Positions 45,801-51,800 of a stretch of 64,000 nt of DNA are shown here, one piece after another. The notes below the pieces were generated by a model that was not told the origin of the DNA, did not search any database, and saw only the letters and a list, made by a program, of their open reading frames with translations. This DNA is from Crambe crambe. Taxonomy: Eukaryota > Porifera > Demospongiae > Poecilosclerida > Crambeidae. Position numbers and translations under genes: made by a program. Positions within the stretch are counted from its first letter, which is position 1; each line of letters begins with the position of its first letter. The stretch covers positions 4,216,001 to 4,280,000 of the forward strand of contig OZ004581.1 of the NCBI GenBank assembly GCA_963924555.1. The letters run 5' to 3'.

Positions 45801-48800
45801 TATTAATTTTCTTGCAGGCTACTAGCTACGTAGTATGACGAGTTCATAAGTTTTGATCATTATGATTCATGGCCTGCCACATTATAGTAGTAGTATAGAT
45901 GCTCTTGTGGGTTCTGCATTGCTTGGATTCTCATGGTTAATTACTAACTTACGTACCTGTGTATGTCAATTGTAGGGTCCTTTAATGGTGAACGTTACCA
46001 AACTATATCCCACCCAAGATGCAACGGTTTTTCAAACTTTTGGGAGAGTTATCAGTGGTACATGTAAGTGCTCACAATATACTCCAACTGTGACTATGAA
46101 TTATGCTACAATCTCAAGTAGCGGGCCCAATAATATTATCTATCTAAACAACAGCAGTAAAGAGTTTAACTAGCTGTAATACAATATCATTTATTCTTCT
46201 TATTTTTACCTAGTGGAGATACTGAATCATACACCGACTTGGGTTCCTTGATTCAGCCATGTCCTTTATTATTTTGACTGCCATGATCACGTGTCAAAAT
46301 AGAATGATGGCTTTAACTGCAAACAGGATAATTATTATGTATAGACATAGATATATTACACGGAACAGGATTGGAAACTCCCCAAATTTGCGGACTATCC
46401 GTGCCATAGTGCACGCGGCCTGCTATGCGCAATGCAGCTGGCCTAGTTAATGAATTCATGGCATCTTTCAGCACGGGTGATGGCTCTATTATAAGTCAAA
46501 CAGGTATGGTTGGTAGCTATCTGTTATAACAGCTAGGGCTAGCTAGCAAGCCATAAGCAAACAGGTAAAGATTTTACTTTTCCAACTTCATTGATTGTTC
46601 AGATTCTACTTCATGCAAAGACCACAGAGACCTTTTCATAGCTACAATACAGTCTGTGATATCAGATGAAGGTTTCCACCTGCAGTCTGCACGAGCTCAG
46701 GAGGCACTGAAGTCAGCAAAGAGTCTTTTGCAGTGGCTTCTTATAGAGAAAAACACAAACAGGACTGATCTTTTTTTGGAGTTGCTGTTTGCTGACTTGG
46801 ATATGTCTTGATGATAAGAAGAGGTGGATGCACAAAATGTGGGAGAAATTTCATAAACTGAGAATACCAGAGCAATTTAATAAAAGATGGGTGAAATTTT
46901 TAGGTTATAGTGGTGGTGATCCAGCTAAAGATCCAATCCTCTATCAGCATCTGACTCAATTATTGCTCGAGAGACGAGTGAAAGAGCACTATCCTGTGGC
47001 AGAGGAGCAAAGTAAGCAAAAAGAGACTTTGGACTTTGAAGAGGCTAATAGCGTGCGGTACATAGCAGGATATGTTATAAGAGCCTTGAAGAAAAAACTT
47101 CTTCGCATGTCAAACCCATTGCAAAAAGAGCTTGATTTGTGTCTAAGTGAGATGTTAGAAGATGGACAAAACAGTGGCAGCTCATCGGAAGAAGAATCAG
47201 AAAAGTGGACTAATTTGATTGATAGAGGGGGGTTAAATCATGTTACAGATGCAGTATACACATTTTTTTGTGTCAATGGAAATGGAAGTTAGGCAGCATT
47301 TGGACAAGGGAAGTGAAGAATGTGGAATAAAGGAAGTAGCAATGAGTGGAATAAGAGAGAATGAGGAAGTCCAATTATTTTGGTCAATGATAGCAGACGA
47401 TTGGGAAGAAAAACAAGCTGACACTCTGCTGGAATTTGTAATCGAGCATTATGTGACACTTAGAGGATTCTCACACATAAGTGCATTGATGGAGAAATAT
47501 AAGGATCATAAAAAGAAGACCACGCAAAAGAGTAAAGGAATAAGGAAACAACTGTGTAGTACCAAAACAGAGAGTTCAGATAAATAGAGAAAAAATTATG
47601 TTTATTGCTATCAGTATTACCATAATAATAATTCTATATGAGTGGATTTAACTTTTTAGTTTTAGCAACTGTTTTTCTTTGCCTCTTTGGTAGAGGTGCA
47701 TTTTCTGCATCAGAGACTGGTTCATCACTACCTCTACAATTTCCTTTAATGGAGCCTTGACAGAAAGAATTGATATACCTTATTGTTTCAGTGTTATCAT
47801 AGAATTCTTTGACATTGGGGTTATCGCTAGTGCCTCCCCTCTGTTTTTGGCAACCAAAAAAGTTTTCAATGGGATCCTGGCATAGCTGTTGTGTCAAGAA
47901 TGCAAGTTTTGCTCCTTTCACTTCTCTCATGGAGAACATGGCACGAACTATGCCAAGAAGTGAGTTCACTGTGTATAAAAATGAAACAGGTATGATACAT
48001 ACATGTAGTAGTTAATATACCGTAGCTACCTGTAATCCGTAATCCAAGGCGGGTCTCACTGCTAAGGAGCATCCTTTTTCTCTCATGTGGTTCAAATCCT
48101 ATCCTTTTTTCCACGGCTTCTTCCCATTCTGAGAGGTACCCCAAAAATTCATCTTCCAACCACTGCATAGGTGTAGTTGCAGGGCAAGGCAATAATGTGA
48201 CAGTACAGTACCGATGAGATAATAATCGTTATATGCACTATGATTCATACATGCACTTACAGCCAGCCTTTTGTCTTCTGCATGTCGAAAAGGATACTGA
48301 TTGGGTTTCCTGTTCCTTGTGCCATTGGTGAAATTACTGACATTGAGTATGTCAAAAAAAGTATCAAAAAATTGGCAAAATTTTGCAGTTTGTGTTGCCT
48401 GTGGTCCTCCTGTTAGTACAAGAGCTTTGCTCACTGATTCACTGAGAACCTATTACAGATTAATTTAAGTTTGAGTCAGTATGTGTGCATGCATAAAATA
48501 GCTACCTCTAGTGTTATGTTTATTACTGACCTGCATGCTAAATCTACCCTCATCTTGGAAAACGATGTAAGCTGAATATGCTCATACTTCAATTTTGGCA
48601 CAATGGCAAGTCCGGTTCCTTTCCCTCTATCTCTTTCATAGAGGTCAATGAGATGGTTCCATGAAATATTGCCTTCATTCTGGTGAAGAGTAACAAATTC
48701 TTATGGCTAATTAATGTGATATTTATTAACTAACCCACAGATTCCTGCATTTCGATGACCAACAATTACGGACAGTCTTCATTAGATGAGGAGTGTCCGA

Positions 48801-51800
48801 AAAGAAAAAAATATCTCTCTCATCTGATGCATAGATGTTTTCACCTTGTGAGTAAACTTTGATCTGGAACCATGGATCTTTATAAGGCGTCTATTCACAG
48901 ATGCCCCATCAAAGGTTGCTCCCAATACCTAAATTATGATTATAAAGTTATTATAGTCAGTTGTTCTCAATTTTTAACCTTCAAGCCCATCTTTTCAAGA
49001 TGAAACACAGCCTGCCAAAATGGGTGGAAAAGCAAGCCACCTGTGATATTAGCACATGGAAATTGTGTGTATGCAAATCTGAGGGGAGTGAAAAGCCCTC
49101 TGACCATGAACATCATGATGGAATTGGCAAGTACTTTATCTTCACCAGATACACCCAGAGATCGCTCAAAAGCAAGGATATGGTTATTGATATCTCCGAG
49201 ATTTATAAAGCCAATCATCTTCCCTGTACTCTTCTGATATACCAAATCTTCTCTATTGTGCATCTCGTCCAGGATTAGAATAACTAATTTTTTCCAATCC
49301 TCACAGGAATCAAGATTAGCAGCCTTCATTAAAAGCAGATCCACTTCAGTGGAAAAGCCAGCACCTATATTATATGAAGTCAAACCAGCTGTTATAATTA
49401 ATATCGACCGGGGGGAGGGTAGAACATGCATGCATGTACACACCTGTCTTGATGCAGTGAGAATAGTCCTGCAGAGTGTGGTGTGATGGAAGCTGAATAC
49501 ACTTGGAGTCCCTCAATGTGTTGTATGCCTTACTGGATAAATGGCAGATGTATAAACACCATTTAATCATTAAGGGATGCCATCGCATTCCTCTTTTGTC
49601 TGCACGGGAGGCACACTCTTTTTGCTGGTCCCAAAACACCTTTTTGAATGATCCATCTGGATAATCATGCAGCTTCTTCTTTTCTGCATCAATCATTACT
49701 GAGTAGAGATCACCAGTTATTTCTTCATCCAACAACACACCATTTCCCACCACTTCTTCTTCGATTTTAGCTTTGAGTCTAATAAGCCGTTTCAAGAGGT
49801 TTCTTCTTTCATTTTGCAAACTATGCAACCTCTGCATTTTCTCAGGTGATGTAAGATATCTATAGTTGATATGACTGGAAATAGACTTGGATAATGCAAA
49901 GGAAGAATTGATAATGTGTCTCCTCAATTGTGAGAACATGGTGGCCCTGTGCTTCACACAATTGGAACAACGATGCACTGTTCTTGAGGAAGGTAGGATA
50001 AGTGAGCACTTGATGTTCCTAATAGTTGGATGAGGGAGATGTTGATCATCTCTGTATGCTACACTGGTTCCTATCATAAACATCCACTGTATCATTAGAT
50101 GTGCTACATGATATTATATTGCCATACCGGATTTATCCTTGAAAATGCCTCCATTCTTCTCCACTAATGGATTGAACCTAGGATCCGGATTACCTATGCA
50201 GTAGTTTGCATCATCCATTGCTGTCACTAGATTGAGGATCTTATCAACTCTGTCCATTTTTTAGGTTAATAAGGTTGTGTACACTTGATCAGACTATCAA
50301 ATTAATAGCAGAATCGACTCACCTTCCATGCTTCTAGTTCTGTGAGGATTGAACAGTCTACAGTCATACTACCAACACTTATGGTGTATTCAAGGTCTTC
50401 CATGATTGTAATGGTGAAAATTGCTTCCACTCTCTTCTCCCACTGGTTATATCTCACCTTTTGTAAGGCAAGGCAATTGTTACCTGTAATGAACTGCACT
50501 GCCCACTCCCTAGGTATACTGGACTGTGATCTTGTCAGCATAGTGTATAAACTCTTGGCAGAGGAAGCTCTGTAGATGGAATGTGGGATTTGTAGAATCA
50601 GAGATGTGTCTGCAGTGCAGTCATCTTCTCTTTTTCTCTTCCTCTCATGGTTCTTCCTTGTATCAAATCTCAATTTTCTCCTACTCATCCTTGTCCTTAT
50701 AATCAATATTAATAATCATGATAATTAATATGCCTAGCTAGCTAGTTATTTTCATGACAATTTTATAGTGCACAACATTGTACTTCGAAGTTCTACTTGC
50801 TTCATTCCATTAGTAATGCTGTTACTGCTCCCATACATATTCAAATGAACATACATTTCTCTTATTTTCATAGTGTTCTTGTTACACAAAGTAATGTACC
50901 AAATTTATATAAAATATGACCATTAAACAAGTTCTAACAGAATTCATACGTATGAAAGTCACTTAATCCAGTAGTTCATACCTCAATGCATGCAATTTAT
51001 ACTTGCTAAAACTTTAATGCTATCTCCTAACTAAAGAAAATGTAACACAAAGTATTTCAGCCATGGTAAGGTCACTAAACAGTCCTCCAACTCTAGCATG
51101 GTTACTGCTTTCTCACCTGCAATAAGAAAAGATGATTGTGGTAAGTTCCGCGTATGTGTCACGGACAGTCCTGGCCTAGCAAACTGTTGCACGCTTTGCA
51201 AAAACCACAAAACCACAAGATAGAACGTCTACACCATCGCCTAAAACCATGGCAACGGAGCGAAAATGCTATGGCAAGGATTGTCCGTTTACAATTATAT
51301 TAGGCCTATGGGCGCACGTGACGAGTTTCCAATCCTGTTCTGTGTAATATATCTATAGTATAGATGACAAGTGAAACCTCACTAGAATGGGATGAACACA
51401 ACTGAAGCTCTAATTGATATCATTCACATGCAATCAACTTATGTACATACTTCATACGTAAGATAATTATTGTTTCAGATATACACGTATATTATCATTG
51501 CTTATGTTTAAGCTGTACTCATTCATAAATCTCTACTACATAACTTTCATTTGTCTTATTTGCATACTTTCCCCCCACCTCTTTACTCATGTTTATACGT
51601 ATGTAGCTACCATTGTTATTTGTTCTGAAGTTGTTTATCACAATATATATCCCACCTAATACATTTACTCCCATAGAGAAAAGTGCTCTTACTGTCATAA
51701 ATTCCCTCCCTTAGGGTAAAGTGTGTCAAACACACTGTTCCCCAGGCTATGAATAACAACAGTTTTAGGTTTTCTGATGATAATAATAAGATAATCTGAG

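Follow-up and report, generated by a model that had tools for sequence, protein, structure and literature searches.

The P element is the model transposon for the study of GTP-dependent transposition and of control by splicing, and P elements have been treated as carrying a single gene. In Drosophila P and in THAP9, one gene encodes a protein in which a THAP domain, an RNase H core with its DDE residues, an inserted GTP-binding domain and a C-terminal region form a single chain, and insertion generates an 8-bp target duplication. According to the available text of PMC7776569, only the full 87-kDa Drosophila protein carries out transposition, whereas a 66-kDa form without the C-terminal third represses it. 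Here we describe an element of the sponge Crambe crambe that, by its predicted catalytic core, is a member of the P superfamily and that carries two genes. It spans positions 46346–51357 of a 64,000-nt stretch of contig OZ004581.1 (hereafter the window, to which all window coordinates refer), its minus strand encoding a P-type transposase (about 50.7 kb to 47634) and its plus strand carrying a second, convergent gene, the companion. Judged from sequence comparison across the genome, it is secure that both genes belong to the element. We further propose a THAP-less two-gene lineage of the P superfamily in which, with confidence about evenly balanced, the companion would be the detached C-terminal module of the transposase and both genes would be needed.

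The association of the two genes recurs throughout the host genome. A search of its 143 Mb with companions, one transposase segment and the PF21787 profile, followed by merging of the matches, gave at least 160 transposase and at least 178 companion clusters, counts that are lower bounds because the searches score only the best candidates. A companion lies tail-to-tail within 6 kb of 105 of the 160 transposase clusters, in tandem with four and divergently from one; seen from the other side, 105 of the 178 companion clusters have a convergent transposase, five a tandem one and one a divergent one. Random placement (200 replicates, contigs taken as 7 Mb) produced 3.0 pairs in any orientation on average and never more than 8. 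The gap between the matched regions of a pair has a median of 1,668 bp (10–90% range 1.45–2.1 kb), and the distance from stop to stop is 29–120 bp in 15 other loci, some of them near-identical copies, compared with 46 bp in the window (47588–47633), exactly the spacing that an earlier note on this DNA had given for a convergent second gene. Among 20 fetched loci, 18 carry the companion together with both transposase profiles; the exceptions are L011, which has no last transposase segment and which another open frame seems to interrupt, and L013, a deletion derivative that retains both ends, the companion and the last transposase segment only.

Short inverted ends and a 7- or 8-bp duplication are characteristic of the P superfamily, and the sponge elements have 35-bp ends and exact 7-bp duplications. 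Matching ends and such duplications enclose both genes in 15 of the 20 fetched loci (L009, L010, L014–L023, L025, L026 and L028); the several full two-gene copies that the earlier note had named as support do exist, with duplications of 7 bp and not of 8. These two-gene copies fall into nine end families, all beginning with CATAGATA or near variants of it (CTTAGATA, CATGGATA), and an internal GGATTGGAAAC is present in eight of the nine, L028 being different. One end search accepted loci only with an exact 7- or 8-bp duplication, and those it found were all of 7 bp; it was therefore unable to count copies without one, and it returned no pair of ends and duplications in L012, L024, L027, L029 and L034. 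When no duplication was required, an exact 7-bp one was present in eight of the nine loci with both ends, the window included, and the flanks of the ninth, L013, match at five of seven positions. In a control of 180 shuffles (blocks of two bases, nine loci), for which an exact 7- or 8-bp duplication was also required, the best pair had 19 of 35 matching end bases, compared with 33–35 in the real loci. The best pair in L030 has different ends and may be composite.

Not a single mismatch separates three copies (L015, L016 and L018) across 4,918–4,928 aligned bases, L016 being 10 bases shorter, and they lie between different duplications, from which we infer that the two-gene unit moved recently. 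Companion and transposase have also diverged in step, since their identity matrices are correlated with a Mantel r of 0.92 (n = 13 loci) and, without the near-identical L012, of 0.85 (n = 12), a value as high being reached in none of 5000 permutations in either case. As for selection on the companion, its dN/dS ratio is 0.27 for L009 against the window copy, 0.23 against L013 and 0.21 for L021 against L023 (C part, dS 1.8). L009 (C13:235000) and L010 (C13:289500), which lie about 54 kb from each other, are one element in identical flanks and therefore count as one insertion duplicated with its surroundings, either by segmental duplication or because a single contig contains two haplotypes. Non-autonomous elements of about 1.36 kb, among them L004, L008 and further short copies, have the ends of the window family and 7-bp duplications; in L004, three left ends are stacked in tandem.

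The P-type transposase named in the earlier note is confirmed by two profiles that exceed their cut-offs in the window copy: PF21787 (E 7.6e-12), in the RNase H N-terminal segment with its DEM motif (48967–49443, minus strand), and PF21789 (E 3.6e-7), in the last coding segment with the RNase H C-terminal motif QDPIENFFG and a basic LPKRQRK tail (47634–47969, minus strand). Profiles made from relatives with the window excluded match the P transposase 6p5a, at E 8.8e-10 for the segment upstream of the RNase H (A2, seven relatives) and at E 4e-7 for the last coding segment (A3, 11 relatives), and by counting DEM aligns to D230 and QDPLE to D528 and E531. In the window, the upstream segment (49370–50095, minus strand) has a CxxC motif and by position corresponds to the coiled/helix-turn-helix region; the P-type helix-turn-helix PF12017 exceeds its cut-off in one of ten open frames scanned (L028, E 7.6e-5). 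A GTP-binding insertion domain is probably also present. The corresponding segment (48099–48434, minus strand, FFDILNV) matches PF21788 at E 8.8e-4, under the curated cut-off, and a profile with conserved FFD..NV (A5, 12 relatives) aligns to residues 406–452 of 6p5a at E 0.23, its sole match at E≤5, placing FD..N on F443, D444 and N447, residues named as GTP contacts in the available text of PMC7776569. By contrast with Drosophila P, no THAP domain was found in the first coding segment (50302–50706, minus strand) or in any of ten transposase open frames scanned, and all 30 THAP matches in the genome lie more than 5 kb from any of the 160 transposase clusters. The protein also ends early: in 18 of 20 frames, some of which represent one copy twice or copies that are nearly identical, the stop lies 67–79 residues past the catalytic Glu. 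The other two end at 21 and 30 residues and may be damaged. The Drosophila P transposase, 751 residues long, continues for about 220 residues. A single-sequence phmmer search with a core transposase frame gave one unrelated match (E 0.47), and the RNase H C-terminal profile found no relative in a viral contig collection.

The companion is a protein of about 320–350 amino acids with the conserved motifs W..FH..R, RY.AGYV.R.L.KK, W....DRGGL and RGF. In the window its gene comprises a putative first exon with a start codon followed by a GT donor (46458–46503, plus strand; recognised by eye, the stretch being also present in L009) and a putative second exon up to the stop (46603–47587, plus strand), whose frame, compared with that of the intact L009, is broken near 46.8 and 47.3 kb. 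The sole recurrent Pfam likeness of the companion is to PF12596 (Tnp_P_element_C), the family that represents the C terminus of the 87-kDa P transposase. It appears in five of 16 companions (best E 0.01; in the window within 46789–47292 at E 0.07), and the matched stretches, where given, fall within profile positions 58–96. The 24 other Pfam families listed for companions occur in one companion each. In a genome-wide search, PF12596 gave two matches at E≤1 (0.65 and 0.72), both inside companion genes, which, as 178 clusters of about 1 kb each, make up far less than 1% of the genome sequence. We regard this likeness as real but weak evidence of homology. A phmmer search with one companion gave no result.

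Another P-like clade came from places that PF21787 found outside the list of the first transposase query, three of which were followed (L036, L037 and L040). The clade was seen at L036, L037 and L041–L046 (on C17, C9, C11, C3, C14 and C16), and at five of eight grouped transposase places a convergent second gene of its own lies within 2.3 kb; the companion motifs LYRISGW and YLDRGGLTF are found in L041 and L043. The profile of these second-clade companions can be aligned to that of the first around DRGGL (hhalign, a single comparison: E 5e-4, probability 31%), so the companions of the two clades may share an origin.

Three observations suggest a split enzyme: the weak homology of the companion to PF12596, the distinct activities of the 66- and 87-kDa Drosophila forms, and the early end of the transposase. 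The C-terminal module of the P transposase would have been detached and would be encoded by the companion, which would be supplied in trans and join the transposase at the transposon ends; movement would proceed by cut-and-paste and require both genes. Several results weigh against this proposal. No PF12596 match was found in 11 of the 16 companions nor in any of three second-clade companions scanned, and the matches score 13.3–17.3 bits, where bits are given, against a curated cut-off of 22.6; one companion matches the unrelated PF09688 at E 2e-4, more strongly than any companion matches PF12596; and the length of the companion exceeds the 107 positions of that family. The companion profile found no P transposase in the PDB, yet the solved chain ends at residue 569, short of the C-terminal region, and the AlphaFold model of the window companion fragment was unusable (mean pLDDT 39.6). 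In two other companion comparisons dN/dS was higher, at 0.57 (L009 against L012) and 0.67 (L025 against L039), three more pairs being saturated. Finally, no partner appears in the tables for 50 of the 160 transposase and 67 of the 178 companion clusters. Five of the seven partnerless companion clusters inspected are truncated or deletion derivatives: L029, L030 and L032 have truncated convergent transposases, L031 is a deletion derivative whose ends match at 23 of 35 bases within an exact 7-bp duplication, and L013 is the derivative described above, the remaining two being L033 and L039. Of the partnerless transposase clusters, four of 50 were inspected: L035 is a derivative that has ends but lacks the companion, another element disturbs L034 (judged by eye), and L036 and L037 are members of the second clade, which has its own companion. 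Two deletion derivatives, L032:382-3315 and L035:3494-6860, have identical 35-bp ends, one retaining the companion and part of the transposase and the other the transposase without companion. Degenerate companions at C14:1734987, C11:5762075, C9:3490950 and C1:2999963, which have an equal number of in-frame stops and three of which have no listed transposase within 6 kb, are possibly an amplified non-autonomous element.

The partnerless transposase clusters are also what would be expected if a transposase-only element had captured, or landed beside, an unrelated gene. We reject such chance nesting as scarcely credible, given 105 convergent pairs against about three expected, the nine families in which ends and 7-bp duplications enclose both genes, and the co-divergence of the two proteins (r 0.85–0.92); the earlier note, which would have taken the pairing for chance if other copies had the transposase alone or if companions mostly occurred without it, is upheld by the 105 convergent clusters counted from either side. 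A more serious competitor, which we consider possible though less probable than the split enzyme, is that the companion originated separately, as an accessory protein for end binding, targeting or assembly, and that its likeness to PF12596 reflects a short helical motif that arose by chance or convergence. The matches are indeed weak and cover about 30–40 positions, an unrelated family outscores them in one companion, the protein is longer than a C-terminal module, and two-gene elements with other types of partner are known, namely RAG1-like/RAG2-like and Kolobok/KolX (available texts of PMC7204232 and PMC9587614). Against a separate origin, both genome-wide PF12596 matches fall inside companion genes, this family alone recurs among the companions, and the transposase stops where the Drosophila protein would go on. 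The companion might instead be a self-encoded repressor or regulator with a role like that of the Drosophila 66-kDa or KP proteins, since P elements are known to encode repressors (available text of PMC7776569) and antisense overlap between genes whose tail-to-tail stops are so close could be regulatory; we judge this improbable because a repressor would be less expected to persist across families at 20–50% identity in step with the transposase, and the Pfam matches listed for the companion include no DNA-binding family. Returning to the split enzyme, its two-gene state could go far back in the P superfamily; the single-gene P/THAP9 form would then have arisen by fusion of the companion to the core, with Drosophila ORF3 as a relic. 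The convergent companion of the second clade and its alignment at the DRGGL block fit an old pairing, and we hold this extension to be unlikely as it stands. If true, the splice-controlled ORF3, the switch between repressor and active transposase, would be the remnant of a once separate subunit.

The window copy itself is delimited by a 7-bp target site duplication, GTATAGA, at 46339–46345 and, identically, at 51358–51364. Its left terminal inverted repeat (46346–46380) begins CATAGATATATTACAC, and its right one (51323–51357) ends in a base unlike that of other copies. The matching inverted ends of about 35 bp announced by the earlier note are thus present, 33 of 35 bases agreeing once they are aligned with other copies (initially 34 nt at 97%). 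We placed the first base at 46346 (C) because 24 of 40 other genomic left-end matches begin there, the others starting elsewhere. The note's limits of 46339–51365 are corrected accordingly, and its 8-bp duplication with one mismatch, which arose because the boundary had been placed one base off, is replaced by the exact 7-bp one. The copy is 97.1% identical to L009 over 4,969 aligned bases and is complete, as had been claimed, for its ends and gene content only. Judging from the two interruptions of its companion frame and the deviating last right-end base, both relative to L009, it is probably not autonomous; with both ends kept and the companion broken, it would move only with the help of intact relatives.

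The element had also been described as sitting inside an essential splicing gene. That gene is EFTUD2/Snu114 (U5-116 kDa), of which one exon lies upstream of the insertion (45976–46062, plus strand, best E 1.1e-6) and the next lies downstream (within 52625–52768, plus strand, E 1.7e-10). These consecutive exons correspond to about residues 472–500 and 499–536 of human Snu114, so that the insertion is intronic; an interruption of the coding sequence is rejected. Elsewhere in the window, open frames on the minus strand recognised by eye resemble a non-LTR reverse transcriptase (3914–6203) and a DIRS-type element with RNase H and tyrosine recombinase (10804–14356). An Rfam scan of the window gave no match.

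Compared with described systems, the sponge element shares with Drosophila P and THAP9 the RNase H core with DDE, the probable inserted GTP-binding domain and ends of about 31–35 bp, and its ends begin with CA, as do those of the Drosophila P element; its movement, too, would be by cut-and-paste. It differs from both in having two convergent genes, no THAP domain found, an early transposase end and a 7-bp duplication. In RAG-like transposons the partner of the catalytic protein is a RAG2-type kelch protein. These transposons (ProtoRAG, RAG1L-RAG2L) resemble the sponge element in that the catalytic and partner genes lie tail-to-tail inside the inverted ends, but, as the available text of PMC7204232 describes them, they are Transib-related and make 5-bp duplications. 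Kolobok lineages (Kol0 with KolX; KolobokP) likewise couple a DDD/E transposase to a second protein, which in KolobokP is encoded downstream on the complementary strand, but they belong to a different superfamily and the KolobokP partner is a His-Me finger nuclease (available text of PMC9587614). Within the P superfamily, Galileo has a P-type transposase and mostly 7-bp duplications (PMC4168063) but differs in its very long ends and its THAP transposase (PMC3688188, PMC3573991), as far as the available portions of these papers go; a second gene is unmentioned in the portion of PMC4168063 examined. No two-gene P element is described in the titles and abstract openings listed, at most 25 per search, in our literature survey, whose scope excluded Repbase Reports and most subscription papers, and a catalogued family may exist. 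A P lineage that combines a conserved second gene with copies of recent appearance would offer a natural dissection of the C-terminal part of the transposase, the part missing from the solved chain. Such a lineage parallels the pairing of RAG1 with RAG2, and through it one could test whether domains of transposases pass back and forth between a fused and a separate state.

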